Shown piece by piece: positions 7,386 to 63,900 of a DNA stretch of 64,000 nt. This DNA comes from Prototheca cutis (lineage: Eukaryota > Chlorophyta > Trebouxiophyceae > Chlorellales > Chlorellaceae), in contig BCIH01000009.1 in assembly GCA_002897115.2 (NCBI GenBank), positions 812,415-876,414 on the forward strand, in the 5' to 3' direction. A model generated the notes under the pieces. That model did not search any database, had not been told where the DNA came from, and was given only the letters and a program-made list of their open reading frames with translations. The position numbers were made by a program, and so were the translations under genes. Every line of letters starts with the position of its first letter. Within the stretch, counting starts at the first letter, position 1.

Positions 7386-7737
7386 TCACTCCTGAAGGTC
7401 CACAGTGGCGTTGAAGGCTGATCGCGGTTGGCCAGGGAAGCTGATGACCAGGGCGTCCACTTGGGCCTCCGTATGCTCCAGCGTGGCCCCCTGAACCATG
7501 GATTTTCGACTCGAGGAGAGTGTGAGTTGGGTGGCATGGAAGCAGTGGGCTGCGCTGGCTTGGGACTGGCGTGTGCAAGTCCAGTCCAGGGCCCCTATAT
7601 TGAAGCTGCCGCAGCCCACCCCACCCGCACATCCACCCACAAATCAGCGCACTGTGTCGATGATGACATCGGCCTTTGACCGTCGTTCGGCATCGGGCAG
7701 CTGCCTTTTCAGCAGTGCCTCGAGTTTCTCTGTGTAA

Positions 7738-7797
<60 letters not shown>

Positions 7798-8806
7798 GCA
7801 TGTGGGCACACCATACCCCACACCCCGAGGCAAAACAATATGGGCGTCCACCATGGCCCCCCTCACCGAGTGTCATGCCCGGACGAGCGGTGACCCGGGT
7901 GCGCTGGACCTCTGGTGGCGCGCTGACTGTGACGGTGATGTCACAGCCGCCCTCCGCCCCCGTCTCGAACAGGAGCGGGATGTCCAGGACGATGGCTTCC
8001 GCGCCCTCGGCCGCCGCGGTCAGAATGCGGGCCCGCCGCGCGCGGGCCACCAGCGGGTGCACGATGCCCTCCAGGTCCTGCAGTGCAGCAGGGTTGCCGA
8101 CCACGCACCGGCTCAGCGCGCCGCGGTCCACGCCTGGGGGTATGTGCAGGAGTTTGCCGTGTGGCTCGTTGCTTGGCTGGGGGCTGCTGGTGCGGTCGGG
8201 CAAGGCCCGGTTGAATTCCATCAACCGGGCGCCAAGGGGGATATGGTGGCCTTAACTCACATGGGGGCGCCTCGCATGCCTCTTCCCCAAAAGAAATAAA
8301 TCTCATTCTTCCAGCACCCCATCTCTCTTGCCAGGTTCAGCCTCTCACACCTCCGTCATCGCCGATGCAGCTGGGGAACCGGGCACCCAGGGCATCGACT
8401 GCACCACCCCCAGGAGCATAGAGCTGATGCACAATCTGCAGCATGGGTTCGGTGGGTCTTGCATCCCGAGCACTTGGTCAAGTGTTGGTTGGTCGGTATC
8501 ATCCCAGGGGTTTCAGCCAGGCCCTGCCCACTTCCGACAACCCCTGGCGGTCACCCCACCGCCCCTCCAGCCCACCTGGTCTGCGTCGAGCAGTGGGTAG
8601 CCGCGCTCCACCAGCATCTTACCGACGGTCGTCTTTCCCATGCCGATACCGCCGGTCAGGCCCACGATGAGGATGGGCTGGTCTCTGGGCGCGCCCATCC
8701 TGCGGGCCTGCAGTACTGGGCTGGCCAGCCGTGCCCGGCCGGTGCGGGCCTTGGCGATCGGGCCAAGACGCGACCCTCTGCTGGGAGTGCCAATGCTAGA
8801 TATCAT
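7386..8806 (-). CDS. COAE: Dephospho-CoA kinase
   Basis: Five exons on the minus strand (8576-8806, 8351-8435, 7867-8133, 7653-7729, 7386-7490), phases consistent, 254 aa. The enzyme phosphorylates the ribose 3'-OH of dephospho-CoA, the last step of CoA synthesis. Seen: P-loop [13 protein letters not shown], the substrate-site [17 protein letters not shown] rebuilt across intron 1, [28 protein letters not shown] and the lid-side [12 protein letters not shown], in the order expected of CoaE. The first 36 residues, before MGAPRDQP, are rich in Ser, Arg and Ala and may be an organelle transit peptide; starting at that second Met would give a cytosolic form. It is divergent from MSH3, with only 227 bp between the start codons. 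Intron 3 holds a large microsatellite next to its acceptor. Confidence 0.94.
7741..7797. repeat. (GT)n-(GA)n microsatellite in a CoaE intron
   Basis: About 39 bp of GT repeat is followed by about 18 bp of GA repeat on the plus strand. In the sense of the host gene this is (TC)n-(AC)n ending 11 bases before the acceptor of intron 3 (7730-7866), where it may serve as the pyrimidine-rich tract. Confidence 0.95.
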
Positions 8807-9033
8807 GGGGTGTTGAGCGGGACATGATCACGGCATTTGGGTCCAAAGAGTTGTCGCGGATTACTCGTTGTGCCCACCTCCGCCGTGGAGCGTGTCGGAA
8901 TGCACTCACCCCCGCCCGAAATGAATTGAAAATGCCATGCAAACTCAATGCAGGATGCAAGAGACTGTGTCCAGGCGTGGGACATGCAGAACACACTGAA
9001 TCCTCATTATATGCACATGGATGTATCGTAACA
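8807..9033. promoter_or_regulatory. Short bidirectional promoter region, CoaE / MSH3
   Basis: These 227 bp separate the start codons of two divergent genes. Both promoters and 5' UTRs must fit here unless either start is wrong. No specific element was identified. Confidence 0.5.
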
Positions 9034-10467
9034 ATGCGTCGAGCGGGGAAGCCTGTGCCGAAGGCTCAGCGCCAGATCACTTGCTTCCTGACGCCAAACA
9101 AGCCCACTGTCGCAATCATCCCGGAGAATTCCTCCGATCCTTCTATCAAGACCTCGGAGAAGCGGCCGCTTGAGTCCAAAAAAAAGGAAACGGTCGAGCA
9201 GGAGGCCGATTCGCCGGACCACCTTGCCAAGCGCCCAAAGTCGGAGCAAGGGCCGGATGCCGCCCCTCCAGGGGCCCCTGCTGGGCAGGCGCCGCCTCAT
9301 CCACCCGAGAACGCGGAGCTGCATGACAGATTCCAGCGCAAGCTGGTTTCAGGCACTGGCATCACCAGGAGGGAGCGTGCCGAGGAGCAGCGCCAGGCGT
9401 GCGCGCTGGAGCCGGCGCCCGGCGCAAAACTGACTCCTCTGGAGCAGCAGGTCTATGACCTCAAGCGTCAGCACCCGGGGGTGCTGCTCATAGTTGAGGT
9501 GAGATACTTGAGGGGAGGGATCCCTGAATGGGGGACTGCCTTTGATTTGGCGGCTGGGTGTGTGGAAGATGGAGGTTGGAGAGCTCGCAAAGGCTGGGGC
9601 CATATGCTGCTCTGTGCTTTCTGCATGTTCACGTTGGCCCCCCCATCTCACAACGACAGTGTGGCTACAAGTTTCGATTTTTCGGTGAGGATGCGGAGAC
9701 GGCATCTCGGGTGCTTAATGTGTTCTCCTACCCCGACCACAACTACCTGGTGGCTTCCATCCCCACTTTCCGGTTGCACGTGCACGTGCGGCGCCTGGTG
9801 GAGGCAGGGCACAAAGTCGGTGTGGTGCGGCAGACGGAGACCGCGGCCATTAAAGCTGCTGGTGCCGGCCGCTCTGCGCCCTTCCAGCGAGCCCTTACCG
9901 AACTCTACACCAGTGCAACACTGGAGGTGAATATGTTGGGGGGCCGGAGGTTGGCTTGTGTGTGTGTGTGTGTGTGTTGGGGGTTCCTCATGCAGGACTT
10001 CTGACTGATCACCTACACTCCTGCGTCCATTCCCTGCATGATGCGCATGGTCCCATCTTTCGAGCCATGCCTGCAAGAAGCCCTACTTACCCCCACTCGA
10101 CTCATTATTCATTGTTCAGGCCGGGGAGCTCGGGGAGCCAGCGTGTGCGCCTGCAGAGACGGCGCCTCAGGACGCCGAGTTCCGGGACCTGTGCCGGTAC
10201 CTGGTCTGCGTGGTGGAGGACAGCAGCTCGGCATCGGCAGACGGCGTGGACGCCGCGATGGTTGCCGTTGACACCGCCACCTGCCTCATCCAGTTCTCGC
10301 AGTTCAGGTGGGTAGGTGTGTGTTGGGCCACGTTTGGTTTGCTGTTCAGGGATATGGGTAGTTCTTCGTGCTATTTTCTCCACGTTCTGTTCCTTGCGCA
10401 TGGGCAACGAGTTTGTTTGGAGACCTTTGACTATCTTCCCCAGCATCAGCCAATAACCAGCGATATG

Positions 10468-10517
<50 letters not shown>

Positions 10518-13500
10518 ACCACCTCCTCCTGTGTAGGGATTCGGCGCTGCGGAGTGAGATGGAGGCACGGCTGCTGTGCTGCCCGCCCAGCGAGGTGCTG
10601 CTGCCGGCCGATGTCAGCGACCCAACCCGGCGCCTGTTGGGCTGCGTGGGCGGCGCGGCCGCCGGCCCGGCCCGCACCGAGCTGGTCGACCCGGCACGCT
10701 TTCCCACTGTCGACGAGGCTCGGGCCGCTGTCATGAAAACAGCGGCTGGTGATGGAAGACAAGGCATGGAGAAGGACGAGTTTAGTGGAGGGGGTTTCGA
10801 TGGTGAATCCTCCGCCAGGACAGCGGCCTCTTTGCCACCTCAGCTGGAGGTGCTGCCACCGCTGGCACTTCGGGCCCTGGCGTACGTGCTCGAGTACTTG
10901 AGACCATTCAGGCTAGATGCCTCGCTGGCAGCCGGCGGACTGTGCCAGGAGCTCAACCCGCGGGCCGAGCTGTCGCTGTCACCCAACGCGCTTCGGCAGC
11001 TGGAGATCCTGGGCTCTGCTGAAAATGGCGTCAAGGGCAGCCTGCTGTGGGCCATGGACCGCACAAAAACGGCCTTTGGCGCGCGCCTGCTGCGACACTG
11101 GGTCGCACACCCGCTGCGCCATGCCGAAGCGATCCAAGCCCGCCTGGATGCCGTCCGAGAGCTCGTCGAAGACGGTAATTAAGGGTGTTCGTGTGTGTGT
11201 GTGTGTTGGGGGGGGGGGGGGGGGGGGGGGGGGGTGGAGTGGGGGGGGGGGGGGGGGGGGGGGGGGGGGATGATGGTTCTGGTAGTGGGGTCATGATTAT
11301 GTCAACTGGGCAGTCCAGGAGCAACCCTGCATCGAGGCTGTCACTTAGCGAGAGGGTTGACGTACATGCGAGAATCCCCCTCCCACTGCAACACAACAAG
11401 GGTTGACGCATGCGACGCTTGTGGAGCTGCCCGGGGTGCTCAAGGGCATGCCGGACTTGGAGCGGGGCCTGAGCCGCGCCGCACATGCGACGGCCACGCC
11501 CTCGGACTTTTGCGGCGTGCTGCGCGCGCTGCGCGACCTGCGGCGGGTACTGCGGGCCGACGCGGCATCGCCGCCACGGTCGGCGCTGCTGGCATCGCTG
11601 CTGCGCGCGGCAGCCGCGCCTGAGGTGGAAAGCGCGGCACAAGTGGCGCTGGCTGACGTGTGCGAGGACGCGGCTGCAAAGGACGACAAGCTGGGTTTAT
11701 TTGTCCCCGGCTCGGCCTTCCCGGCAGTGGATGAGCGGCGCGCGGAGCTGGCCGCCGCGCGGCAGGCGCTGCGCGACGAGCTGCCGGGCCTGCGTGCGCT
11801 GCTGGGCCTGCGGACCCTAGACTACGCATCCATCGCCAACCAGGGTGAATACCTGGTCGAAGTGCCCATCGACCTCGTTGGCCGCGTGCCCAAAGGTCTG
11901 TGGAGTTTTCTTATGTTTATTTTTTGGGGGGCGGCTGTCCTCATAACGAAGCCTGACGCCCTCCCTTGTTAAAGATCCTTTCCCCCTGCCCAAAACACAC
12001 GCACGACTCATGCACACACTCTCGGGGCACAGATTGGGAGAGGGTGTCAAGCGTCAAAAAGGCGGTGCGGTACCGCCCGCCTGCGGTCAAGGCCGGAGTG
12101 CGGGCGATGGAGCTGGCAAAGGAGCGGCTGGCTGCTGCCTGTCACGAGGCCTGGCTGGCCTGGCTGCGCCGGTGCTGCGCCGCTGACGGCGCAGCACTCC
12201 GGGCCGCAGCCTCTGCGCTCGCGCAGCTCGACTGCCTGCTCAGCCTCGCCTCTGTCGCCACCAACGCCGGGTGGGTGGGTCGTCATGATGTTGCCGTCGT
12301 TCTGGGGGGTTTGGCCGTCGTTCATGGGCCTTGTTAATTGGTTCAAAAGCATTGTTACTCACCTCGTGTGTGTTGTTACCAATCTCATGGGCGTTGTTAC
12401 CCGCCTCATGTCCGTTGTTACCCTTCCCTAAAACCATCCAAAACGCACAGGTACGTGCGGCCCGAGCTGGTACATCCTTCCGCAGCCAGTGCAGGCGCGG
12501 TGCTGGAGCTGCGAGGTGCGCGACACCCCGTCATGGAGGTGGCGCTGGGGCCCGCGTTTGTGCCCAACGACGTCGTGCTGGGCACAAGCGACGACGGTAC
12601 ACCCCGTGCGCTTGTGCTGACGGGCCCAAACATGGGCGGCAAGAGCTGCCTCATGCGCACCGCGGCCGTGGTGGCCATCATGGCGCAGGTGGGGTCATAC
12701 GTGCCCTGCACCTCGGCACGGCTGACGCCCATGGACGCGGTGCTGACGCGCATGGGCGCGTCCGACAACCTTGCGCTCGGCCGGTCGACGTTCCTCGAAG
12801 AGCTCGGGTGGGTGTTGTTGTCGGCAGCTTGGGAGCATTTTTTGAGTGTGGGAGGTGGGAAGGAGGGGAGAGGAGGGAAACAAAAGGGGTGTGTGTGCTT
12901 CCCAAGCAATCTGCACAGAAGAAAGAGGGACCTGTGGTGTGCTCCACCGCTGCAGGGAGGCATCAGCGATCTTGGCGCAGGCGACGCCAAACTCCTTGGT
13001 CATCATGGACGAGCTGGTGAGGGGGGGGGGGTCTTCTTCTGCCGAGATTGGAGCTGCGTGTTTTGTGCTGGTGGCATGACGCCTGAACCCCTTCTTTTGA
13101 GACCGCTGCAAACGCGTCCACAGGAGCATGGCACCGGGCTCCTTCACCGGTCGACGTGCCAGTGGTCCACCCACCGCAACCCCACGACAAAATCACATAG
13201 GGCCGGGGCACGAGCACGGAGGACGGCGTGGCCATCGCACAGGCGACGCTGGAGCACCTGGCGCTGCGGACGCGCTGCCTGACCATGTTTGTGACCCACT
13301 ACCCCGAGGTCCCTGCGGCGGCCCGGCAGGGCCCGCTGGCCGCGGCGGCACGCCTGGGGCGCATGGCGGTGGTAGAACAGGGGGGTTCCCCGCCGACCGT
13401 GACGTTCCTGCACAGGATGGAGCCGGGCGCGGCGGGCGCATCCTTTGGCCTCAACGTGGCGCGCATGGCAGGCATCCCGCCAGACGTGCTGGAGGCCGCG

Positions 13501-18300: not shown

Positions 18301-19561
18301 TCGTCCAGGAACGGCTTGGCGACCTGCTGTTCCCCGTCGGCCGCGGCCGCCGGCGTGTGAGGTAAGCCGGGTGTGGTGTGAACAACCCTGGCTTTGTGGC
18401 AGTGCAGGTGCATCACCCCCCGTACCTGTGTTGCAGCAAGTGCTCACCGTCCGTCTGCACACCAAACATGCATGATGCCAGGCACTACCACGGGAGCCTG
18501 ACGGCGGAGGAGCGGGAGAGCGTGCAGTCAGAGTGGACCAACGGTGAAGTGTCCATCATTGTGGCCACCATCGCGTTCGGCATGGGTGGGTACACGGCAT
18601 GGTTGTCCCGGTGTGGGGCTGCGGCTGCAAGTGCACTTCCACCGGGTTTACAACTCTGGGTGCACTTGCACCGGGGCCACAGCTCCGACTGCACTGGCAC
18701 AGCGTTGCGGTGCTTGGTTGCTTTCCAACACCAGATGCCTGCCTTGCCAACGCCCACAGGCATCAACAAAGCCGACGTCCGTTATGTCATCCACTTTAGC
18801 TTGCCAAAGTCGCTGGAAGGCTACCTCCAGGCACGGACATCCCGAGGGGTTGTTGGCACTGCGGGTTGGTTGGGAAGACCGCAAGGGTTCGGGATCATCG
18901 CCGCCTGCTAGCAGCAGCGGTGGTGGGGTACGTGACGCCTGGCGTCGTAGCACCTGGTGCGAGCCCCCATCATCACTGCTGCAAAACCCTGAAACCCTAG
19001 CAATCAATCACCAAGTATCTGCAGGAGAGTGGGCGGGCGGGGCGTGATGGCCTGGCCTCGGACTGCCTGCTCTACTATTCGTATGCCGACGCCGCCAAGT
19101 CAAGGCACATGCTGCGCCAGTCGGCGCAGGAGAACAACTCGCCCCTGGAGCAACTCAAGTCCAATGAAGAATCCCTGAATGCCATGGTGGGTTTGAGCGA
19201 CTGTCTTGTGGACCTGGTTTCGAGCTTGGGGGTGGGGAGGTGCTTGACCCCGGCAGAAAATGATCTCTCAGGGGGGCAACCCAGCCCCGTCACGCCTCTC
19301 CACCCCCTAATCCAAGCAACCGCCATCAACAAACACACCAGGTGGCATACTGCGAGGAGCAGGTGGAGTGCCGGCGGGTGATGATGCTGCACCATTTCGG
19401 CGAGTACGGCTTTGAGCGAGTCGCGTGCCAGGGAACGTGTGACAACTGTGCCCGTGCGGCTGCGGGGCACCGGTTTGTCTACGAGGACCACTCCCGCGCC
19501 GCCGCCAGTGGTATGAGCTGTGTGTGTGTGGGGGGGGGGGGGGGGGGGGGGGGGGGGGGCG

Positions 19562-19623
<62 letters not shown>

Positions 19624-21816
19624 GACGGTATCTTTATATATGTATGTATGTGCGTAAATTTGTAAGTATGTACATGTGCATGTTTGTCTGTAGTTTATTT
19701 TGTCGTTATTTGGTCTTAGGTCGTTGCAAAAGACGCCATGTCTGTCAGCTTTCTATTCTGCTCACTCGCACAGTCATCCAGGTGCTACGGGCGACGGGCC
19801 CGCTGTCACTGTCACTGCTGTCAGACGTCGTCCGAGGGGCCAACACGGCCGCAGTGCGCCGTGCGGGGCACGATGCGCTGCCCGTGCACGGCGCGGGCCG
19901 CGCTTTCTTCCAGCGCGGCGGGCCCGGCGAGGCGGAGCGCCTCGTACGGCGCATGGCCGTGCTGGGAATCCTGCGCGAGCGTACGCAGCGCCGCGAGGCC
20001 CACATGGCAGTGGTTGCCACGCTCGAGGTCTGCGAGGAAAGGGCGGCGGAACTGGCGGCGGGGAAACTTCAAGTCACCGTCGCTGTGCCTGCCAAGGGTG
20101 GAGCAGCGGGTGGTGGCGCTGTTGGCAGCAGTAATAAAGCTGCTGGGCCCAGACCGCCGGCACTGGACCTCGCGGCGCCGGCCCGGTTCAAGCAGCCGGC
20201 CGGGGGCCCGGGCTCCACACGGGGAGGGCGCGTCGCACCGGCACTGGCAATCTCAAGACTGCCCCTGCCCGGGACGATGGCTGCTGCTGAAGATCCCATC
20301 GATACAGAGGGCAACAACGAGGTGTGTGCTGTCGATGGGAGGGTGGGGGGGAAAGTGCTGATCCTGTTGTGATTGTTCGTGTCACCAGAGCACCAGCTGC
20401 CTCGACGACAACGGGCAGCTTGTCACCGTGTACCTAAACATCCACTTGCCGGCACGCTTCCTCCCCTGGCGCCTCATTAATGAACGAACCCTCGCCCGCC
20501 GCTCCTTCCGAAATGCAGTCGCCTGTCCGGACACAGCTGTACAAGGCCGCCCTGCACCAGCTGAACAGCGCTCTGCGGCGGCGACGGAACCTGGCGCGAG
20601 GACCCTTCACGGGTGCCGTTCAGGCCTCGGTGAGGGAGGGAGGGATTTCTTTTTCATGTCCTTGGGGATTCTTCTGAACGGAGGGTTGAATCCTCTCCAT
20701 ACACCCACATTCCCCCCTCCCCCCCCTCCAAAAATCCACGAATACGACAGTTGGCAGCCCATGCGCCCAAGTCGGTGGGGAAGCTGCAGGCCCAGGTCAT
20801 CAGCGGCGTGTCGGAGCAGATGAAGCGCCAGTACGGTGCTGTCGTGGTGCGTTGGGGCTGTTATGGGCCTTGTGGCGCTCTGAGCGGTGGCACCAATTGT
20901 GTGTGTGTGTGTGGTTGGGGGGGGGGGGGGGGGGGGGGGGGCGGCGGCGATGGTGCTGTCCCCCAATGCGGGGAACCAATCCCCCCGTTTCTCACTTCCA
21001 AGCTCCCCATCTGGCCCGTCTTTCCATGACACAGGTGGCGGCCATCTGCCAGGCAGACGCGTTCATGGCAATGGTGTCGGCGGGTCAGGCACAGCTGGAG
21101 GAGTTTGCTCTCGACGAGGACAAGCTGTTTGGCGGTGCCGGCCAGGTGCGGCTGTGGCGGCAAAGGGGTGATTGGGGTTGAGACGTCCTCGCTGCTGCCG
21201 TCTGCCACGCGGCGGCTGTCCACCTGCGGGCCTGCAGATCCCCGCAGACATGACCACCCCCGCACCCACAACACACAAACGTGTGCAGGCAACTGGGAAC
21301 ACCCCCGTGACGCCGGGGACGAAACGCCGAGCAGACGATTGTTTCTGGACTGACAGTGACGGCGATGACGAGGCATGGGCGGCCATTGGTGCGTGCAGGG
21401 CGTGGATGGAATGCATTTGGATGGCGCGGGGGTCCAGATCGTGGCAGTTGCCAGTTTCAACCCCCGCACGCTCTCCTCCTTGCACCTATCATAACCCAGA
21501 AATCGCGACAAGGGCACACGTGGCCGCGGCTTCGGCGCCCAGTCTGGAAGCTTTCCGGTACGGCCCTGCATCCCTGTCCACCCCCAGGCGCCAGCCGCTC
21601 CAAGAACCCAACGGCAGTGCTGGTGCATGGCACCCGCCAGGGGCTGCCCAGGGCCACGGCAACAGGCCCTCCCAGCTCAACTACCACCAGCAGGAACAGC
21701 ATTGTGTACAGGAAGCTGCTGGAGAGCACAAGTGGCAGCGAAAGAAGCAGCCCATGGCACAGTCGGGCTGGTCCAAGGTGCGCTACGAGGCCGGCGACAC
21801 CATCGACAGCTTCTAA
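15386..21816 (+). CDS. RECQ: RecQ DNA helicase, BLM/Sgs1 type
   Basis: About 17 exons. Main boundaries: 15386-15525, 15622-17242, 17357-17661, 17805-17919, 18077-18137, 18309-18361, 18482-18585, 18760-18830, 19025-19185, 19342-19510, 19774-20321, 20389-20427, 20519-20629, 20751-20846, 21035-21145, 21238-21388 and 21588 onward. It unwinds recombination and replication intermediates in the nucleus. A Gln/Gly-rich N-terminal half precedes the helicase core: Walker A MPTGGGKSLCYQLPAL (near residue 517), DEAHCVSQWGHDFR, ALTATATP, HYHGSLTAEERE, ATIAFGMGINKADVR and QESGRAGRDG. Then come the RQC zinc module (CEEQVECRR, CQGTCDNC), a winged helix and an HRDC-like domain (LAAHAPKS ... ISGVSEQMKRQYG). 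Intron 8 needs a GC donor. The 3' end is unsettled: the last exon's phase leads to a stop at 21955, whereas the best C-terminal coding signal (SGWSKVRYEAGDTIDSF) is one frame away and stops at 21816. The start codon is also a guess. Confidence 0.93.
19530..19622. repeat. Poly-G tract, RecQ intron 10
   Basis: About 90 bases of almost uninterrupted G start 19 bases after the donor (GTATGAGC at 19511) and follow a short (GT)n run. It is the longest homopolymer-like tract in the window. Confidence 0.95.
20917..20941. repeat. Poly-G tract, RecQ intron 14
   Basis: Twenty-five G on the sense strand, preceded by (GT)n, about 70 bases after the donor at 20847. Confidence 0.9.
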
Positions 21817-22326: not shown

Positions 22327-23486
22327 ATGAAGACGATCGGCCTCTTGATTGCCGTCGCGGTCTGCCTGGCAGGCGTGGCGGTGCCCGGCCGGGGCTGCGT
22401 GGTCGAGACATTGCAGAACCTGTCTGGCGTGCTGGTGACATCCCAGGCTCTCCAGGTACGCTAAAAGCGTCAAAATACTGGTTTACAACGTCAACGCACA
22501 ACGACACGCTCCGAACTGCCGTCCCATGGGGTCTGTGCAGGCCTCGGATATCGCGGGGAGCTTGGAGACCCCGACCACCAGCATCACTCTCCTCGCGCCC
22601 AGCGATGTTGCTTTCCAAAAGTTCCTGCTCCAAGTATGTAGACAGAAGTAGGATGTGATAAATGTACCCTACAGTTTGGCGGCTGCTGGGCGTGCTGGGC
22701 GTGTGCTGGTTTGTTGGAGGGGCAATCATTCAAAGGCTGCTGCATTCGGCCCCCTTGCATGTATAGACGGGGCTGACGCCTGCTGAGCTGTTCAACTCCA
22801 CCGCCGAGATCACCGAGGTGAGGATCGCACAGTGTGGCCAGACCTCTGCATTTTATGTGCATTAATGCGTGCATGTGAAAAGGAATTGACTGCCAGCCAG
22901 GCTGTCAGCCAATGCATGCATGAACGACTGCCCGTCCCGTCGTGCAGCTCTTGAATGTGCACATTCTGCCCGAGGCAGTGAATGGCAGCGAGCTCGTGAA
23001 TGACGCCAGCTTTGAAACCCTGGAGCCGGGCGTGAATGTCACGGTATGCATTCCTTTGGCCCGGAAAGAGCATGGAGGTGCTGGGTACAGTCTTGTCCCT
23101 GTGTGTGCGCGCGCGCGCGCGCGCCAGAAGAGGGGGGGGGGACGCAGTCGTATTCTGTCACATATATGTGCCAAAGCCCTTACCCTCATTCCGCATGCAG
23201 ATGCTGGTCCCGGCGTTCCCAAATCTTGTGTCTGCAGGGACATACATGACCGCCGGCTACGGGCCCCCCGCCCGCATCATCGCGACATATGCGCCGGACG
23301 ACTGCCCGAGCATTGTGTATATCATCGATCAGGTCAGGCAGGCTCACTGAACATTTCGGGATGAGGCATTGGAGTGCGGGGCTGGCGCTGCAGCCAGCGC
23401 GAGCGCGGTCCAAGGAACCTGTGCTCCTCCCCCTCCTGCAGGTTCTGATTCCGGAGCAGTTTGTGACCCCTCTCGGCCTCGATTAA
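22327..23486 (+). CDS. Secreted single-domain fasciclin (FAS1) protein
   Basis: Six exons (22327-22455, 22541-22633, 22767-22817, 22948-23043, 23201-23332, 23442-23486), every exon phase 0, encode 181 aa. The protein opens with a clear signal peptide (MKTIGLLIAVAVCLAGVAV), then one FAS1 domain: TLLAPSDVAFQKFL (H1-type box), TGLTPAELFNST, LLNVHILPEAV (the central VHILP motif) and YIIDQVLIPEQF at the end. FAS1 domains mediate adhesion and sit in cell-wall or extracellular proteins. No GPI-anchor tail is visible, so it is likely soluble and secreted. Two N-x-S/T sites are present (NLS and NST, plus NGS and NVT). The all-phase-0 structure is tidy and supports the model. The closest relatives cannot be named from sequence alone. 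Confidence 0.87.
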
Positions 23487-25709: not shown

Positions 25710-25771
<62 letters not shown>

Positions 25772-26450: not shown

Positions 26451-26520
26451 GGCGACCCACCCCGCCTCGCCGTGCAGCTATTCCCCCGCGCTGGAGCAAC
26501 TGCCGATCACCCTGGCTTCG

Positions 26521-35100: not shown

Positions 35101-35500
35101 CACAAATACCTGGCTGGTTCCATTTTCCTTTTCATCCCTTGACGATGGGCCTGGTTGTGGTGCGGTCGTGCCCAACGATGCCATGCCATTGGGCGCCTTG
35201 AGACTTGACGCGGCCGCAGCTGCCACAGGCGGTTCGTCCTTTTTGGCTTCTGTCCCTGCAGCCGGTGCTGCGCCAAAGCTGGATGCCGGGGTCCCAGTCA
35301 CAGCCCCGCCAAACAGCGGCTTGAGCTTTGGTGCCGGTTGCTGTTCCTCTGCGGCCTTCGTAGCAGCCACGGGTTCAATGGCTGGCTTCGATTTGTCCGC
35401 AACCTTGCTGGGCTCAGCGGGCTTGGGCTTGAAGATGTCGTCAGAGAACGTCACGCCTCCAAAGAGCACCTTGCCACCAGTGGTCCCGGCTGCTGCTGCT

Positions 35501-35542
<42 letters not shown>

Positions 35543-49447: not shown

Positions 49448-51327
49448 ATGGAGCAACCATCGACATCGAGAGCCAATACTATGGAGGTACGGGTGCGTAC
49501 GTCTTGCTGAAGAACTGGCCTTTTGGTGTGGGCTGGCCACGGTGCAGCATGAAATCTTGATCACTTCCCCGGACTCTAGCATCCTGCAGGACATGTTTTC
49601 CTCCAGCCTGCAGGCGTCCACCAACGCCTTGCCCCTGAGTGAAAGCAAGTGACATGGGCGCATGTGTTGCTGCTGGATTCTGCAAGACTCTCGAGGGATC
49701 TGTATGGCTGCGTGGTCATGGTCCCTGGGCCGCCACTGGATGTCCTTTGGGGCCCGCGCTTTAGCTCGCACCTGTACACTGGCCCCATTCCTGCAGAATG
49801 GTTGCAGCAACATGGCAAGGACATCATTAAAAAGGGGTTTGCGCGACGGAAACGATACCTTGCCGCATTCTGCATGCGCATCAACGCCGTCACCGGCGGC
49901 AGGCTGGTGGGTGGCGTGCAATTGGATGATGTGCCTGGCTGTCATGCACATCCTTTTTCCAAAGACACTGCTCCATTCATGCAGTCCCTCAGTTTGTCCA
50001 GGGTGCATTGTTTGAAATAAAGCTCCCCATTCCATTGCCGAAACGCTGATACAGGGGGTCCTGGGTGACCTTGACAGCGAAAGCCCAACGATGGTAGTGC
50101 CGCTACCCGAGGGGGCGCTCAAGCTGACAGGTGCACTTGAGACTGCACCATGGGAAATTGGGTGACTGCTGCACAAAGGTTCTTGCAGTCGCTGACAGAC
50201 CTCCCCAAATCATTGCTGTCGGCCAATGTTTTGGGACCAAGCGCTGCCAGTCGCCCTGTCCATCTGCAGGCAAGATCTGTTTTCCGAGGACAAAATACGC
50301 GGTGATGAAGATTGGACCAAAGCACATCCTGTGCGAAGACCTGTTTGATTCGCTGGTACGCTTTTTTGGGGGGGGGTCTCACAAGGTCGCCAGTATACCT
50401 CCCTGGATGGTGAAGATCGCTTGCGCAGCCACCGACCTGACGAATGGGGATGAACCGGAAGACAGAACCCCCTCCAAATGCATCAACGGCAATCCACCTA
50501 CTACCACCCTGTCGCTCTTTCCAGATTGTCTTTGATCAGTACCGGTGGTTGACCCCGGAGGAAGCTGCTGTGGAGCCAGAGGTGGGCCCAGCAGCGAGCC
50601 AGCCAGAGGAGCCTCTCGCAAAGGACGAAACATTACCAGACGCAGAGGAAACAGAGCCGGGTATGAACGTATGTGTGTGTGAGGTTGAGGCAGACAGTGC
50701 AGTGCATTTCGTTGTCCTCACTGCACGCTGCTCATCATTGACCATCGTGCCCGCCCACACCAAGGGACGCCTCCCTCATCGCAGCGTCTCAAAGCACACC
50801 CAAACGCACGCCCAGCCGGAAGCGCCGTGGAAACGATTCGGCATTCAGCCCCCTGGTTTTGACCCCGGAGATGCTGACGTGCGAAGCACTGACACGTCGC
50901 AGAAGCGAGGGGCCAATGGGGGAGGATGGAGTGCCTTCCCTGTCGTTCAGGAAGCGTGAGCCCAATTGGGAGAGCTCCCCGGAGGTCCTCCAGAGCAGGC
51001 CCAAGCGACGAGCTGTCGCCAACCGGACTGTTTTTTCAGGTGTGGCAGGAATTGGATTGCAGTGGGAAAGAGAAGAAGTGGGGCGTCCGTTCATGCAACG
51101 CCCGTGGCTTGATACTCGTCTATGGAATGTGCTGGGAAGGGCGTGTGTGCTGCACTGGAGCGCTGGGTGTTTGCCAAGCTCGTGGCAATCCCACATCTGT
51201 ACTCCTCTGAATCTCGACAGATGGCACGTCCTCGGAAGCCAGCAGCAGCTCTGGATCAGATTCCTCTGGCTCCGAGAGTGGCAGCTCCGGATCGGAATCA
51301 GATCGCGCTGGAGGCGGCAGCGACTGA
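49448..51327 (+). CDS. Predicted nuclear protein, possibly BIN4-like (topoisomerase VI partner)
   Basis: Eight exons (49448-49486, 49590-49648, 49687-49906, 50055-50130, 50270-50355, 50525-50660, 50785-51039, 51221-51327), all phases matching, encode 325 aa. A globular N-terminal half contains LGDLDSESPTMVVPLPEG, then LKLTGKICFPRTKYAVMKIG and EDLFDSLIVF. This resembles the central region of plant BIN4 (DLSGD... then LDLKG... PSRTFCVV... FGQTEAKIEAIM...), a DNA-binding partner of topoisomerase VI, but only in outline. The C-terminal half is acidic, then basic (STPKRTPSRKRRG, a likely nuclear signal), and ends in a Ser/Gly/Asp-rich tail. I am fairly sure of the gene model and unsure of the function. 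A profile search against the BIN4 family would decide it. It lies between RAD50 and CTU1 on the same strand. Confidence 0.6.
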
Positions 51328-54581: not shown

Positions 54582-57500
54582 ATGTCGCTGGCAGGGGACT
54601 TCTCTAACTACACTGCTGCTCAGTGTTTCTCGATTGCGGAGACTGAGCAGCAGGTGGCATGCTCGGCACAGCATCTGAACCTTACGAACCCACCATCCGT
54701 ATATGGCTACGAACACTACGAGCAGCTGTGGCTCTCCACAGCCTGCCTGCTCTGGAACGTCACGACTGGCCACCGAGTGCGCGTTCATGGTGAGTAGGCG
54801 CGATCAAGGGATCCGGGGGCATCTGGCGACCTGGCTCCCAGGGTTCTTGAAGCTGGTCTCCCTCGTCCTGGGGTTTGATCTCTTGTCAGGCCCCCCGCTT
54901 TGGTCTCGGGACCCCCCTGGAAGGCGGTCAACACCAGGCCCCACCACCCCACCCCTTCGCCCCCTCGCGCAGATGATTTTGTGTGGTGCTCCGTGCCGCT
55001 GTCGGCTCAGGACGCTTTTCTTTTTGTGGGCTTGGCACTGTTGGTTATGAGCACACTGTTCGGGAAGCTGTCGGCAGTCTGGGTGCTCATCACAGGCACG
55101 TGGACTCGAGATGGGAGAGTGTTGGGAAGATTGCTTTGCCTTGTTTGTTTGCTGCAGAGGCTGTTCCCGCCATCAATGCATTCGTCTGTTGATGGTATAG
55201 GTCGTGGGCAGCTTGTATGGTAAAGGAGTTTTCTTGTGGCCTTGGGGTATGGATGGCGTCCAGTCTGAGCGTCGGACAGGCCTTGTTCACCCCGGAAATC
55301 CCCCCCCATTTCAATTGCACAGGTGGCATCGTCGGTATTATCAACTGGCAGGTGAACTTGGGCCTGATCTCCAATGCCATCAGCATATGGTGCGACGGTT
55401 GTTTGGGCCAGGGAGCCTGCATTTGTGGCTGGGGAACAGGGTGTGTGGGTTGTGCGGGCAGCGGCAAATTTTAAATTTTTTTTGGGGGGGTTCGCTGAAC
55501 AATCAAAGATCCTTGGGACCCCACACACGACCAATGCACACCCCTTGCACACCCGCAGGCTGAACATTGAGCCGCCGGATCTGTTCTTCTACGCCTTCCT
55601 GCCGCCGTTATTAGTAGATTCAGCTATACGAATTGATTTTTTCATGTTCAAGAAGGTGCGTTGGGTAGTTGATTTGCTTCTTCTGGTTGGTCGTGCATCG
55701 ACGGGCTCCAGCATCCCCAAACCACAAGGCTCTGGCAAATTAAGACCATTTCCTCTCTCTCCTGCAGCTGAGCCTGCACGCAGTGATGATGGCGTTCGTG
55801 ATGGTGGTGCTTTCTGCCCTTATCCTGACGCCGCTGATCCTGTTTGTCCTGGGGTTCCAGGACCGTGGGTGGTCTTGGGTGCACGGAGCCCTGTTTGCCA
55901 GCATGATTGCACCCACCGACGCTTTAGCAGCTGCCGCCATCCTCAAGCAAGGTCTGTTGGCGGTGATGGTGGTGGTTATATGGTGGCTGGTGGGGGGGAG
56001 AGGGCCTTGCCATGAATACTGGTGGGTGCTTGTCTGGGTTTGAACCCGCACGAACGAACTGGGGTACGCTGCTGGGCGAACGAGAGAAAGGGCACAAAAT
56101 CCGCCAATATGCACACATGCACCCAAAATGTAATAGGTGGCGGCCCCGAGCGCCTGGTGGTGCTGATGGAGGCTGAGGCTCTTCTGAACGACGCATCGGC
56201 CATCACGCTGTTTGAGGTGTTCATGCACGTCATCGAGGAGCACATCAACCCTGCCATGCCCTACCCCTCGGTCTGGAGTGTGCTGCCAACCATCATCACC
56301 CAGACCCTCAAGTAAGAGAATACTGTGGATGGGTGGGTGTGTGTTTTGGGGGGGACTGCGCGAGTACAGGCCGGCGGTTTAGACCCCGGGCGACACCTCC
56401 AACCCCTGATCTCGTTCCATGCTTGCTCAAAACCCCAAACGACAGGCTGGCTGGCATCGGGTTTGGCATCGGGCTGGCCATGTCCTGGTGCACCTTCCAC
56501 TTTCTGCACTGGCTGCGCTGGCGAGGGGCCAAGCCCTATGTTGAGAACAGCGTCATCATCGCAGTCGCATACCTGTCCTTTTACGTCGCCAACGATCCAG
56601 CTGGGGCAAGTTCTTTTTGGTGGCGGTGGTGGGGGTGGGGGGTTGTGGCACCAGAGATGGCTTTCCCCAGTCACTCCATCTCCGTCCCTTCAACTGCCAC
56701 ATCCACTCAACAACCAATAAATAAATGAATCAGGGTTCTGGCGTGATTTCGGTGGTGGTGTTTGGACTGTATGGCAACATGACTTCCAAGTGGGGCATGC
56801 TGTCGTCGGCAGAGGAGAGCGGCTCGTTTGATGCAGGTGTGGGGTATGTGTGCCGGTTGTTCTCTTGCTTGCGGGGCCGGGGGTTCACGGCGCTAGGGCG
56901 GCATGCACCCATGGCGGTGTGGCCTGTGAGCACTCCCTCGCTTGCTAATTCCTTTCTTTCTTCCCGAGCGCAGTGTGGGATGCCATCACGTTTTCGGCCA
57001 ACGGCCTGGTGTTCTTCTGGTCCGGTATTGCGGCGGTGAACTACACCGTCAAGTGAGTGCTTTTGGTGTCACGGGGTTTGGGCACAGCCACAACCCTGCC
57101 TCCCCACATGACGAATCCATTACATAACCCCCTCCCAAAAAACGTACCCGACGCAGCTCGGTGGCCATCCTGAACAACACGGCGTGGAGCTATGCCGCCA
57201 TCCCACTGATCTGGGTGTTTATGTTTTTCATCCGTGCGGGGTGCCTTGTGCTCTTCAATCCCATCTTCAAATGGGTCGGCGAAGGTAGGCATTGGTGTGT
57301 GGGTTTTTATTGGGGGTGACAGGGGGCTGGTTTGGGGGAGTTTCGCGCTTTTGGGCTCCTTTGCAGAGAGAAAGGCGGGAGACGCACTCCATGCAAACAG
57401 CTACACAAACGCCTGGACAAACCCTGTTTAAAAAAAAAATCCAATGCACAGCGCTGTCCGGCGCGGACATCATCTTCACCAGCTGGTGTGGCCTGCGCGG

Positions 57501-60500
57501 AGCGGTATCCCTGATCATGGTCGCCGACTTTGTGTCCAACAGGTCTGTCGCTGGGTTGGCGGGCTGCCTGTATGTCATTCTTGTCTGTCAATGAGTCATC
57601 TTCTTCCAGCACAACAGCAGAAAGGATTGAGACCCTATTCTGAACCCCCCCCCCCCCCCCCCCTCCACCACCCCTCCACACACACACGCCGACAAAAACA
57701 ACAGTCAATTCCACTTGGGCGACCGCAACAACCCCAACGACCCATACACCGTGCTGAACGCGGTGAACGCCGACATCAGCCTGTGGACCAGCGCGTTTGT
57801 CCTGCTGACCCTCGTGGTCAACGCGCCGTTCATCGGTCAGATAATGGTCCTGCTGCGCCTCAACCGCATCCCCTGGGAAAAGCGGGTCATGCGCTACAAG
57901 GCCAAGCGTGCGCTGGAGCGGTTCACGGTGGGGGCGCTGGCGGCGCTGAAGGAAGATGACGACGAATTCCTCCAGGGCGCCAACTGGGAGGCGGTGCTCG
58001 CCTACGTCGACATGTCTAAATCGATGAAACAATTCGAGCTGCCCAGCAAGAAGACAGAGACCAATCCCGATTTTGAACCCGGTATGTTTGGGGTGCTCCA
58101 TGCAAGGGCCACTTTTTCGTGCGTAAAGTCCAAAAATATGAAATCATCCCCCCCCTTCGTGAACAACCCCCCCCCCCCCCCCCCCAAAAAAAAAAAAAAA
58201 AANNNNNNNNNNNNNNNNNNNNNNNNNNNNNNNNNNNNNNNNNNNNNNNNNNNNNNNNNNNNNNNNNNNNNNNNNNNNNNNNNNNNNNNNNNNNNNNNNN
58301 NNNNNNNAAAACCCCCCCCCCCCCCCCCCAAAAAAAAAAAAAAAAACCCCGAAATAGGTGTACGTGGACTGATGAAGCGGGTCAAGTCGGCGATGCTGAG
58401 TCGGTTCACAGACAAGGAGACGAATGTGCTGGGGGAGATGCGGGACATGATCCCCGGGTTGCGACGCCAGACCGGGGACCGCGCCGGCGTGGCCCCCCCG
58501 GCGATGACCCCGGCGACGCTGGGCACTGTCAGGACTTGCGAGGACGACGGGTCGCCGCACGGCGTGCTGCACGATTCGCAGCGGTCTCCTGCAAGTGCGG
58601 GGGGGTATGCCAGCGACACCTCCAGTTCCGGGTCGAGCTCCGCGTTTACGATGTCTGATCTGTCGGAGATGGCTGCAGAAGCCGAGGGCGAGATCCCCTA
58701 CTTGAAGAAAAACAAGGGCTTTGTCGCGGGCCTGTGGCCTGGCGGTGGTGGGTCGTCCCCAGAATCCGAGTCGGGCGACATCGAGATGGGCATCGGCGGT
58801 GGCCGGACGGGCAACAGCAAAACAAACGGTGCAGCAGGGGCATTTGGGCCGCCGGGAGCGCGCATCTCGACGGAGCGTCCGCTGCTCACGCCCCGGCCCT
58901 CGCCCGCAGGCAGCGGCAGGGGTGGGGCTGGTGGCTTTGGCGGTGGGAGTGTCGAGGAAGAAGCAGGCGGTGGTGTGACTGCTGGCGCTGCGAGCGCAGT
59001 TGCCGCCGCACATGCCCCCGGCACCAACGCCGGGGTACCCACCATGAGAGCTGTGCCACAGGATAAGGAGCTGGAACATGAGCTGTACTACAGCACATTG
59101 CCCGCCGGCGGAGCGGCGGAGTTGGGTGCCGCGGTGCGGGATGTCCTCCGGCGCAGCAGCCTCAAGGGCAGCACCCCTGGCCGCGGGCCCTCTGGCACCG
59201 AGACCCCCGATGTCTTGGAAGCAGGTGGAGGCCAGATGCCCGCCCCAGGTCCGGGAGGGATGGACGCGCAGGCGGTGCACGAGGCGTATTACAGTTCGAT
59301 GCCCGCGGCGCTGGGCGCCGCGCTGGGTCGTGAACTCCGTGAACGCCTCAGCCGTCGGTCGCAGGAGCCCGAGGCCGAGGAGGAGCAGTTGGCAGTTGTG
59401 CACTCTTCTGCTGGCAGCGGTGGCGGCGGCACGGAGAACGAGCCTGGAGATGGCGAGACAATTGAACCACCCCTCAGCACTGCATCGTCGCCCGCAGAGC
59501 AAGCAGAACCGCAAGACGACGGCGGCGCAGCTTCCTCATCCCTCCCCCTCGACCATGGCGATTCGTCCGAGTCGGCGGCGCCAAAGATCGACTACTACAG
59601 CAGCATGCCCGCGGCGATTGGCCGTCAGTTGGCCAAGGAACTCGCCGAGCGCCTCCGCAAGGAAACTGGCGAGCCCATCGGTGCTGGTGCTGCCGATGAG
59701 ACGACGGCGACGACGGAGCCAGAGAAAGGCAAGCAGCCTGCGGCCACTGCGTCGGAGCCTCCCGCGGACGCAGCACCGGCGAGGATGAAGGCGCTGCTGG
59801 GCGATGCCGGCGACGACCAAGTCAACGATGACGAAGCCGCCGACGATGGCAATGAAGATGAGGCTGCGGCGTCACGGCTGACGCCTATGGCCGGGAAGAA
59901 ACTGCAGGCGGAGCTGGCCAAGCTTCTCCAGACAGGCAAGAAGAAGCCGGCCATCGGCGGCGGCCGGGCACTGTCCACCATCTTTGACGGCCAAGAGCCT
60001 GCCGAGCTCGATAAAGCCGTGGGGTCACAGCCGCGCAGTTTGTCTGACCCTCGGATGCAGACGCCCTTTGGGGGTGCCTCTGCAAAGGCTGCAGAGGAGG
60101 GGGCGATTGGTGGCGAGGAGGCTGAACGACACGGGGGGGAGAGTGATGAACCGTCCAACAGCCTGGCAAGGGCGGCCTCGGCCGAGGAGGCACCATCCGC
60201 CAGCAAGGTGGCAGCCGCAACAAGCTCCCAGCCAACAGAATCCGGACTGCCACTGGATGCCGCATCCACGATGCCGGCCAGGTTTGGGAAGAACCTGCAG
60301 GAACAGCTGTTCAAGGAGCTGGCCCGCCAGGAGCAGGCCGGTGGCGAGACGTCGGGATCTGCCCGCAGCGGGACCAAGCCCCCCCTGCCGCCCAGCGCCG
60401 GTGAGTAATATGGGGTGCACTTTTTTTGGTGGGGGGCCGCCATTGATGTGTGTGTTGTCTTTTCTAAGGAGAGGAGCGTTCTTATTGACCCTGAACCAAG

Positions 60501-60845
60501 CGAGCAGCTGCTCAGCAACAATCCTGTCCTTCCCACGATCCTTGCTTTCTTCTCTGCTGCTGCAGCACCACGCGACCGGCGGACGGTCAATTGGGACGTC
60601 CACACAACTGTCTCTGGCGTATCTGGTGAGTCCTAGTGGGTTTGAAGAGTGCACGTCAGTGTGGGCATTGGGTGCTCTCTGTCTGTCTGCTTGTGTGTGC
60701 TTCAATTCACCGACCCCGATTGCATTCCATTTGACCCCGGCAGGTCGGAAGCTGGCTTCGGAGCTCGCCCGTTCGAGGCTGGCGCGGGAGGACTCTGGCT
60801 CGCTAGCCCCGGCCAGCAGCCTCAAGAAGAAGGTGTGTGTGTGTG

Positions 60846-60878
<33 letters not shown>

Positions 60879-60881
60879 GTG

Positions 60882-60914
<33 letters not shown>

Positions 60915-60917
60915 GTG

Positions 60918-60981
<64 letters not shown>

Positions 60982-63900
60982 TGTGAGTGTGAGAGAGAGC
61001 TGACTCCTGCTGGCGATCAATCAACCAACTGCTGAGATGCCAATGCAATTGCAGATGCTGGAGGGCCCGGCGGAGCGTCAGGACAGCACGCTGCCCTTTG
61101 CGGCCCCCATCTCATCACACCGGCATGCCATGTGCGCTTGCTTTTTGAATGGGAGAGATTGCGTGCAGAACGTGATGCCTGTCATGAACGGAAGAAGACA
61201 AGAAAAGCAATAGCATTCAAACTGCGAGTCCCTCCCCCGAATTATCACCACCGCCACCACCACCACCCATCTACCCTCCCAGGCACCGGCGGCACCCGTC
61301 GCTGGAGAGGCCTTCGGGAACGATGGTGCATGGCAACACGCCGTTTGCCAATGTGCTGGCCCGGCATCGTCTGAGCCACTCACGGAAGAGCTTTGATGCC
61401 ATCCCCGAAGGCGGATCGGAGCGTGGCTCTCGTGCCGGAAGCCCCCAGCCCATCTCCTCTCCAGTGGGTAGCCTGCAGACAAGCGGCGTTGCGGGCATGC
61501 AGCGGGCAGGGAGTGGGACTGTGGCGATGCTGTACTCTGGCAGCGGCCCGGTCACGCAGGTCGGCGCCGGAGGGATGGGGTCTGCTGCCAGCACCCCGCG
61601 ACACCACCAGCCTCAGCAGCTTAATGTGGTGGAGAGCGTGGTGGTGCGGTCGTGGCGGGCCAAGCAGGATAAATCCAACCTGCACAAGCTCCCTGTCCGC
61701 GGGCACATGCCCGCTGCGGCCATGCCCGGCGGCGGCAGTGCGCCGGCGCCTTTGGTTTCGGGGCATCTGACATCCCGCGACCTCGCCCTCGGTCTGCTGC
61801 CCTCCGCCTCTGCGGCGCTTGGTGGCAGCGCCGATACGCCTCGCAGCGACTCGATGGCGTCAGCGTCCGTCCACCGCAGCATCATGTTTGGGGCCCATGG
61901 TGCTGGTGGCGGCGATGGGCCCGTGTCGCCACACGACAGCTTTGTCATGAGCGACGATGAAGCGGTTGGAGGCGAACCATTGGAGGAGCACCGGCCCGAG
62001 CTGTCCGTGGCCCAGCGCGTGGAGATGCGGGGACGCCTGGTGTCGGGCCTGAAACGCTACTTCCACGGCAAGCGCATCCAGGGGCTGTTGAGCATCCGTG
62101 GACTGCGCATTTTGGACTATGCCTGCGACCACGCTGCAGAGCACCCGGACGTCCCCATCCACATCTGGCAGCGTCTCCAGCGAGAGATCAAGGTAGTACT
62201 ACGCATGCTGTTTTTTCTTTTTGCCTGTGTGCATGCCCACAAAGGTTTTTCCGCACGAACGGGTGTTATCGTTGCACGCTCTTATGCACGCGCCCACCCA
62301 GCGAACGAACCAACAGAATTTCGCCGCCGCCAAAACCGCGAAACAGGGTGACTACGTGTCGCGGTTTGTGGCGCGGGTGCTGATGTGGACAGCCCGTGGT
62401 TTCCGGGCCCTGCCTCACTGGGCGCAGTGGGTCTTCCAATGGCCCATGCGCCAGTTTACGGGCGTGCTGCGTGCGTCGCTGGGCCGACGCATGCTGCTGG
62501 CTTGCGAGGTGGCGGTGGAGTTTTACCTGGGCCTGCTGTGGAGCCCCCAGGTCGCGTGGCTGCGGGGCGTGAACGGCGGCGACGTCCTGCTCCACGAGGT
62601 CGAAGTCGAAACCGACGCAGCATACCGCTTCATCATCGACCGCGAGATCGAGGCACCGGATCGTTTTGGGGCCATCCAGTCGTACCGCGCAGCCATGGCC
62701 CTGCTCAACCAGCAGGCCGGGTTTGTGGAGGAGATGTTTGACTCGGGCATGGTGGACTCGGCCGAGCGCCGCATCATGGCCGAGGCCGTGGACAAGAAAG
62801 CGCGGCACCTGGAAATCACGGGGCCCGTCTGGCGCCCACCCCGGCCCCGCACTCTGGTCAGGGCCATGCCATTCCTGGAGGGGGTCAGTGAGGCCTACTT
62901 CAGGTCCCTTTTCAATGCCGGATCCATCAAAGGTGTGTTTGTTTTTGTGTGGGGGGGGGGGGGGGGGGGGGGGGGGGTCACTCTGAAATTTTGAGAAATA
63001 CGCACAGAAACAAAATGAAACCACCATCCACCCTTCCTCCACCTCTCTCTAAAAATACACCGAACACTACTCTTCAGAGTTTCGGACTGGGGAGGTGTTT
63101 TGGTGTTCGACGGACGAGGTGGCGGAGAGCCATCGGCAGCAGGGTCCGGGGGCATTTATCGTCCTGTCTGGCGTGGTCAAGCAGGTGCACGTGCACCCCG
63201 ACGGCACCAAGCGCGAATACTTTCAGGGCATGGGCGGTGTCGTGGGACTGGTGCTCATGCTCACGGGCTCGCACCTGCCCGGGCGCCAGGTGGCCGTCGC
63301 CCAGGGCAATGTCCTGGGCAAGGGACCCGTGCTGTTCCACCTGCCCCAGCACCTCGCGCCTACGCTGCGGTCGCAGGCCGCCGCGGGAGACCCCAACGCC
63401 CGCATGCTGGAGACCGCGCTCTGTCGGCTGGCCGCGAGCTATGCGATCCAGGGTATGGAGGCGGAGGTGCGAGCGGACATCGCGCAGCACCTTCTCAGGC
63501 TGGCGACGGCGCGCGAACAGCGGCGGCGGTCGCGGCACGCACGCTACGCCAGTCACGGGAAATCTGCGGCCGACGAGCGTGGGGCTGCGGGTGCGGCGCC
63601 GCGGGTTGCGAGGGCGCTGCCTGTCCCCGGCCCGGGGGGTGCGGATCGCGGCCTGGCCGCACGCATGCAGTCCCTCGTTGCCGCGGAACTAAGGGCCCTG
63701 GCAGCCGCAGAGGACGCCGCGAGTGTCGGCGCTGGTGACGACGATGGTACGACAACCTCCACGGGCGACGACACCAGCAGAAAGCGATCATCAACGCTGC
63801 TTCGCCGGGCATCTGCTTCGTCGTCGGTCGAGCACCTGACAAGAGGAGGCTCTTCCTCTCTGGGCCGCTACTCGGCGCCGTTTGGCGACAGCGCTGGGCC

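Follow-up and report, generated by a model that had tools for sequence, protein, structure and literature searches.

The 64,000-nucleotide (nt) stretch of the trebouxiophyte alga Prototheca cutis considered here (contig BCIH01000009.1, positions 812,415 to 876,414, forward strand; hereafter the window) contains genes whose introns carry long homopolymer and dinucleotide tracts. According to the original prediction, made for this stretch alone, G runs and (GT)n of the sense strand lie near the 5' splice site (donor), while C runs and (CA)n lie near the 3' splice site (acceptor). This side rule was borne out in 100 of 103 cases free of assembly gaps, including 75 of 76 outside the window. The tracts themselves are secondary, the primary feature being a base skew tied to splice junctions. 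The genome comprises 19.9 Mb in 23 contigs, and the guanine-cytosine (GC) content of the window is 62%. Similar figures are given in the available part of a report on Prototheca wickerhamii (16.7 Mb, GC 64.5%, mean intron 162.8 nt; PMC7941945).

Genes were modelled with a purpose-written, self-trained hidden Markov gene finder, used without annotation on a 314-kb sample that consisted of the window, 200 kb adjoining it and 50 kb from another contig. As a guard against circularity, the gene finder scored tracts neutrally, confined its splice motifs to 9 + 5 positions and employed a strand-symmetric non-coding model. Training ended at CAG/GTRNGT for donors and RCAG/G for acceptors (the slash marks the junction), and 125 genes with 481 introns of 173 nt mean length were modelled. 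In the window, Pfam matches confirm the genes for dephospho-CoA kinase (CoaE, PF01121), a YEATS protein (PF03366), a fasciclin-domain protein (PF02469), a Clp protein (Clp_N/AAA) and CutA1 (PF03091). Single exons of three further genes matched DEAD (helicase), AAA_23 (RAD50) and Na_H_Exchanger (antiporter; under cut-off); otherwise the names RecQ, RAD50, antiporter and nucleoporin, the last from its FG repeats, are by-eye readings. The MSH3 protein is 63% identical to an Auxenochlorella hybrid protein, followed by those of other trebouxiophyte algae. Across its introns 2, 3, 4 and 8, all of which bear tracts, the spliced protein aligns with four algal homologues, and the small alignment gaps directly after the intron 2 and intron 4 junctions are common to the nearest homologue. 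For the glucan phosphorylase, the part aligned with a solved homologue contains four junctions, of which two fit and two are off: one donor is placed about 9 nt late, leaving three surplus residues, and one acceptor about 30 nt late, so that ten residues are missing that can be read in frame directly upstream. The model of the RecQ-like gene is also in error at 15803, where it has an exon of 1 nt.

Tract-bearing introns occur along the whole window. The CoaE intron at 7730..7866 (minus strand) has a sense (CA)20 located 10 nt from the acceptor, with (CT)n directly upstream of it. In MSH3 (plus strand), all four tract-bearing introns have homologue-confirmed junctions: intron 2 (9927..10119) contains (GT)10 at 30 nt from the donor, intron 3 (10308..10536) C47 at 19 nt from the acceptor, intron 4 (11175..11400) GT16, G27 and G29 in its donor half, and intron 8 (13017..13200) G11 at 4 nt from the donor. 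The RecQ-like helicase gene (plus strand) follows with GT12, G30 and G60 in the donor half of one intron (19511..19773), C8 at 24 nt from the acceptor of a second (20630..20750), and GT16 and G25 in the donor half of a third (20847..21034). On the same strand, the CutA1 intron at 24534..24729 has C10 in its acceptor half. The YEATS gene (minus strand) carries a sense GT10 at the donor of intron 4 (25595..25780), with G60 beside it. Intron 5 of the glucan phosphorylase gene (26969..27185, minus strand) has a sense G26 at its donor, which homologues suggest to lie 9 nt further upstream (27194), and intron 2 (27909..28017) has a sense C23; its modelled end is at 27879, and with the homologue-based acceptor 30 nt earlier, the C run would end 3 nt before the exon. 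What had been called intron 6 of this gene is 3' flank in the present model (26703..26842, no intron modelled), where sense GT and G11 face C20, C22 and C20 across a 25-N gap. The predicted phosphorylase (26843-30594, minus strand) also shows an N-terminal ACT-like domain ahead of its catalytic part (PF22754 just above and PF01842 just below cut-off), which may represent either a fusion or a gene-model joining error.

Further along, intron 3 of the nucleoporin-like gene (35490..35662, minus strand) contains a sense (CA)18 at 12 nt from the acceptor. The remaining cases are on the plus strand. Intron 1 of ClpC (38337..38700) has GT10 at relative position 0.41, and intron 2 (39893..40039) G16 at 13 nt from the donor. 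A RAD50 intron (43772..43912) has C10 at 27 nt from the acceptor, and a small-protein gene intron (50356..50524) G9 at 12 nt from the donor. In the antiporter gene, A10 is found 12 nt from the acceptor at 57285..57451, C19 and CA11 occupy the acceptor half of 57543..57704, and G27 lies 18 nt from the donor of the last intron found (62933..63077). For two introns cited by the original prediction, one in RAD50 and the twelfth of the antiporter gene, the tracts are present but are interrupted by gaps. In the former (45923..46177), G10 and G11 flank a 100-N gap; the latter (58082..58357) reads C19-A17, a 105-N gap, and C18-A17 at 28 and 11 nt from the acceptor. The C-run/A-run unit is repeated on either side of the latter gap (58167-58202 and 58312-58346); the 58167-58202 copy may be a duplicated contig end beside the gap and not a real tandem copy. 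In total, the window contains 230 N, all in three gaps (26793-26817, 45969-46068 and 58203-58307) that lie within or next to homopolymer tracts. Across the 314-kb sample, nine of ten gaps of at least 2 N abut a homopolymer (a cluster at block A 3451-3474 was excluded from this count), which renders tract lengths uncertain. Many isolated single N were also seen in the block from the second contig (C1:1200001-1250000) and few in the C9 block; those of the former are possibly ambiguous (heterozygous) or masked positions.

For counting, the longest tract of at least 8 nt per type per intron was assigned to the 5' or 3' half of the intron on the sense strand. Such tracts are present in 87 of the 481 introns, and in 104 of 112 cases G, GT or T tracts are located in the donor half or C, CA or A tracts in the acceptor half. 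Removal of seven introns with N gaps leaves the 100 of 103 cases mentioned above (binomial p = 4e-26), with 5':3' ratios of 33:2 for G, 18:1 for GT, 9:0 for T, 0:21 for C, 0:12 for CA and 0:7 for A. Hence, G runs are far from equally common near acceptors in the modelled introns, and the rule extends to T runs on the G side and A runs on the C side. Gap introns aside, it is obeyed in 25 of 27 cases in the window, 75 of 76 in the rest of the sample and 24 of 25 in the 50-kb block from the second contig. The claim that no counterexample exists was slightly too strong, since eight cases dissent, five of them within four gap introns. The three ungapped dissenters all sit at 0.57 to 0.60 of intron length: (CG)9 and G10 at 0.59 in the fasciclin-domain gene (23044..23200, plus strand), the longest pure piece, at 0.60, of a 159-bp GT-rich array that stretches from the donor beyond mid-intron in the antiporter gene (60833..61054, plus strand), and, outside the window, a G34 at 0.57 of its intron. 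Both gene strands show the rule, as had been proposed, but this agreement adds no information because a pattern of G on the left and C on the right is unchanged by reverse complementation.

The rule does not hinge on one set of gene models. Five altered gene-finder settings gave 97:5, 85:8, 100:3, 92:3 and 107:7 cases in agreement and against. In a model-free test of the entire 19.9 Mb, in which forward-strand sites with a donor motif and a tract 5-35 nt downstream were counted, G10 followed at 29 sites and C10 at 2, while (GT)5 followed at 33 sites and (CA)5 at 2, the GT count being inflated by donors that themselves start with GTGTGT. The reverse-strand totals of this test (212, 0, 132 and 1) were excluded, as a single tract was counted many times there; a backwards-pattern control, on the strand judged to count each site once, gave 7, 3, 3 and 2. 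The acceptor-motif counterpart, with a motif of just 5 bases, returned 171 versus 157 and did not discriminate between the two. Plus-strand G runs reach 0.46 per kb of intron, compared with 0.16 in intergenic sequence and 0.03 in exons.

Beneath the tracts lies a gradient of base composition. When tracts are masked in the 462 introns of at least 80 nt, G+T is 0.68 in the first tenth of the intron and has fallen to 0.37 by the final tenth. In 259 tract-free introns, i.e. those lacking any G or C run of at least 6 and any four-unit GT or CA repeat, it still drops across the intron, starting at 0.67 and reaching 0.39 at the 3' end. The skew depends on distance from the splice site, being flat for about 40 nt and mostly gone by 60-80 nt. 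All five intron length classes show it, the shortest and the longest ones a little less strongly, and first, middle and last introns are alike in this respect. Its sign flips mid-intron, and whole-intron GC skew is close to zero (-0.001 to 0.011). Decoy GT..AG pairs with good motif scores (524 sense and 581 antisense in long exons, 946 intergenic) show a G+T content of 0.48-0.52 throughout, compared with 0.68/0.36 in real introns.

The run lengths connect this gradient with the tracts. For G runs of 1 to 7 nt, the ratio of donor to acceptor half is 1.1, 1.7, 2.9, 3.1, 3.9, 6.4 and 5.4, and runs of at least 10 are distributed 27:5; C runs mirror this trend with more scatter. On the whole, the side bias thus levels off at a run length of about 6, as predicted if pre-biased seeds were lengthened in a strand-neutral manner. 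Runs of at least 12 were seen 24 times for G and 13 times for C, where position-specific composition yields 0.08 and 0.15, and runs of at least 20 were seen 19 and 8 times with none expected. As the long runs are thus far above composition, slippage or a similar process must lengthen the tracts. An origin of the introns from introner elements was rejected: in an all-against-all search of the 481 introns, one 26-nt match between different introns was found at E<1e-4, so that the introns are not copies of one element. As a separate feature, introns of at least 130 nt (n=343) are enriched in CA and TG (observed/expected 1.2-1.8) and poor in TA (0.41-0.46) and CG (0.63-0.71), at either end as well as in the middle.

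A step in composition also exists at synonymous exon sites. At fourfold-degenerate sites 3-40 nt before donors, the C and G contents are 0.47 and 0.29, whereas they are 0.295 and 0.485 after acceptors and 0.38 and 0.41 in exon cores. The corresponding GC skew amounts to -0.24 before donors (confidence interval (CI) -0.28 to -0.19) and +0.24 after acceptors (CI 0.19 to 0.29). This exon step is weaker than that in introns and fades by about 80 nt from the junction; in a nucleosome-phasing check, no recurrence of skew was seen further inside exons of at least 400 nt. T is slightly more frequent than A on both junction sides, which means that only G and C flip in exons. The ends and starts of exons are mirror images at the level of single bases and dimers, a likeness that is lost for 3- and 4-mers. 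A comparable GC skew of -0.21 (CI -0.30 to -0.12; 78 genes, 852 sites) characterizes the fourfold sites in the last 60 nt ahead of the stop codon in multi-exon genes, while none is seen after start codons (0.03, CI -0.05 to 0.13; 70 genes, 616 sites). The 60 nt beyond stop codons are mildly G/T-rich (0.59 to 0.53) and the region upstream of start codons is not (81 genes). Donors, acceptors and stops hence have a C-to-G step in common that starts lack. Tracts located no more than 150 nt from the 3' end of a gene lack polarity, with 6 G or GT and 7 C or CA tracts.

The two intron ends resemble each other's reverse complement. Between the intron start and the reverse-complemented intron end, base contents compare as G 0.39/0.39, C 0.17/0.16, T 0.29/0.25 and A 0.15/0.20. 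The chief break in this mirror is a depletion of AG-containing trimers near the acceptor beyond what the mirror predicts. The mirror is also broken by T-rich trimers, whose frequency at intron ends is somewhat higher than the mirrored 5' end would suggest and which we regard as a trace of a pyrimidine tract. The intron 3' end is nevertheless C/A-rich (A 0.25, T 0.20) and differs in this from the normal pyrimidine tract that had been proposed to accommodate tracts there. A branch-point search in the introns gave no clear motif. With respect to structure, intron starts and ends pair at -26.6, compared with -24.6 for neutral and -25.8 for mid-intron sequence (a composition effect), and the last 50 nt of introns fold on themselves at -6.5 versus -11.6 kcal/mol for neutral sequence. 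The skew adds about 2 kcal/mol to start-end pairing relative to neutral sequence (0.9 relative to mid-intron sequence), yet it cuts self-folding of the 3' end almost by half, so that its more evident effect on structure is an acceptor region left open.

In the probable explanation of these data, the tract rule is the visible tip of the junction-tied skew, its seeds having been extended by slippage and the skew being kept mainly by selection on splicing. Within about 40-60 nt of each intron end, the sense strand is G/T-rich after the donor and C/A-rich before the acceptor whether or not tracts are present, and strand-neutral replication slippage would then extend short seeds that the skew had already sorted by side. 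The skew itself would be held mainly by splicing selection, on the 5' side in the form of a G/U-rich zone behind the donor, which is the usual site of G-run enhancers. On the 3' side, a weakly structured, AG-poor, C/A-rich landing zone may replace the U-rich pyrimidine tract in this GC-rich genome. The run-length data argue strongly for slippage acting on already-biased seeds, and the case for splicing selection as the force that maintains the skew is a moderate one. Several findings weigh against this explanation. A splicing-signal model predicts neither the exon step nor the step before stop codons, nor the likeness of intron starts to reverse-complemented intron ends (4-mer r 0.88, with a split-half ceiling of 0.92-0.94). 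Before acceptors, A exceeds T, unlike in a normal pyrimidine tract, and only C is clearly raised. Moreover, the skew is hardly linked to splice-site strength: 11 of 12 correlations with donor or acceptor score have |rho| <=0.13. For G and GGG behind the donor, rho is 0.08 and 0.02 with the donor score and -0.13 and -0.17 with the acceptor score (p 0.017 and 0.003), the last value being the strongest of all. G runs of 8-9 nt, at 14:0, fall off the plateau, and both phosphorylase junction errors adjoin tracts, although correction leaves each tract in the same intron half.

Since G/GT and C/CA ends are complementary, the original prediction also proposed that introns could fold to bring their splice sites together. 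Such folding, of the kind described for zebrafish AC/GT introns, now appears improbable. It draws some support from the slightly stronger start-end pairing that composition affords, from the slightly better folding of real introns compared with 20-nt local single-base shuffles (-61.6 versus -59.8, p 1e-6) and from their slightly smaller end-to-end distance (12.4 versus 13.2, p 0.02). In addition, introns with more T at their start tend to have more A at their end (rho 0.29), and tract-free introns (n=238) have a marginal own-end advantage (p 0.044). However, long donor and acceptor tracts do not co-occur: both kinds are present in 2 of 462 introns, where 3.0 would be expected (p 0.76), and the combination of GT and CA tracts alone in 2 introns with 0.5 expected (p 0.09). 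The 60-nt ends of an intron pair with each other about as well as with swapped ends (-32.5 versus -31.9; p 0.18, with 162 of 304 introns favouring their own ends). In tract-bearing introns (n=66), the difference has the wrong direction (-32.0 versus -32.8, p 0.45). A second test of this kind favoured own ends in 161 of 319 cases (p 0.50). Six arm-swap hairpin combinations (across the junction, within exons and within introns; 319 junction sets) gave no excess of own pairing, with intron start and next exon start pairing slightly worse than chance (p 0.04), and folding is equally good after intron halves have been swapped (p 0.65). A model with G/C stems was likewise rejected by mutation in a human intron, according to the accessible text of PMC2481429. 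The other suggestion of the original prediction, an ordinary transcription-linked mutation skew combined with slippage, stands in so far as slippage suits the run-length data. As a source of the skew, transcription is very unlikely: it leads one to expect a single sign, whereas the observed skew is tied to splice sites, reverses within introns to a whole-intron value near zero and ignores intron rank and position in the gene.

A gene-finding or assembly artefact is hardly credible. The N gaps abutting homopolymers and the two phosphorylase junctions placed 9 and about 30 nt off beside tracts would be in keeping with it, but the decoys are flat, the five gene-finder settings, the second contig and the genome-wide donor-motif search all agree with the rule, and the MSH3 junctions are homologue-confirmed. 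A real rival to selection on splicing, albeit an unlikely one, is a transcription-blind process at the DNA or chromatin level that places C/A to the left and G/T to the right of each junction, for example, via directional nucleosome-boundary sequences or mutation or repair bias around linkers. It owes this status to the mirror-like intron ends in base content and 4-mers, to the fourfold-site step in exons at donors and acceptors, and to the similar step before stop codons that is absent after starts. Oriented poly-A/poly-T beside nucleosome-free promoter regions of yeast offers a precedent, while the orientation trend in mouse and human is opposite to that of yeast promoters (both from the available part of PMC4212969). 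Such a process fits poorly with the restriction of the exon flip to G and C, the failure of the exon mirror for 3- and 4-mers, the lack of a skew repeat deeper in long exons, the one-sided AG depletion at the acceptor end and the unpolarized tracts near gene 3' ends. It also seems rather doubtful that each donor, acceptor and stop codon carries the same C-to-G step (C/A to G/T in introns) as a DNA-level junction mark, generated by chromatin or junction-centred mutation, with tracts as its slippage products, and that neither a splicing signal nor the transcription strand is responsible.

Parts of the pattern have counterparts elsewhere. In zebrafish, the same intron reportedly contains both AC and GT repeats, which pair with each other (Lin et al. 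2016, Genome Res). The introns of P. cutis likewise have GT at one end and CA at the other, but without co-occurrence or specific pairing. A skew tied to intron ends is said to have been noted by Touchon in 2004 as splicing-coupled strand asymmetry. A review describes, in the passage available, that AC and GT repeats bridge the ends of zebrafish introns without U2AF2 (PMC9198270). For Chordata, Quadrupia places G-quadruplex (G4) motifs downstream of the donor on the sense strand and ahead of the acceptor on the template strand, i.e. as sense C runs (PMC12581993, in part). In human, donor-side sense G4s are associated with short introns, and acceptor strand asymmetry is weak and slightly sense-ward, as far as the consulted section of PMC9065059 goes. 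The P. cutis introns have the donor-side sense G polarity of both (33:2) and, on the acceptor side, the sense C likeness of the chordate data (0:21). Of a stronger polarity at weak splice sites, a further mark of the chordate type, there is a weak sign with the acceptor score and none with the donor score. What those sections describe concerns G4 motifs only, whereas the pattern in P. cutis extends to overall base composition, T/A and GT/CA included, and to exon sites. In Chlamydomonas and Volvox, GT/AC repeats are abundant in introns and repeats concentrate towards both intron ends; the assignment of a strand motif to each end and the tract-free gradient found here are not stated in the accessible portion of that work (PMC3887541). 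AG avoidance before acceptors has been explained as avoidance of early 3' splice signals (PMC10946897, available part). The AG depletion in P. cutis is alike, yet the 3' ends described there are pyrimidine-rich (T, or C and T), while P. cutis has C/A-rich 3' ends, 5' ends that mirror them and a step in the exons. Other organisms are hence already known to show polarity of G runs as well as GT/AC repeats at the ends of introns. The fourfold exon step and the mirror-like intron ends look new; among the matches listed in a literature search, no report of either was found.

Taken together, a single skew predicts which tract type can grow at which intron end and so makes a measurable rule out of what had been a collection of odd repeats. 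The step runs in the same direction at donors and acceptors, including synonymous sites, which is unexpected from the binding of U1 or U2AF. Cases of intron loss could exploit the exon step to distinguish between splicing, chromatin and mutation as the force that shapes the bases at junctions.

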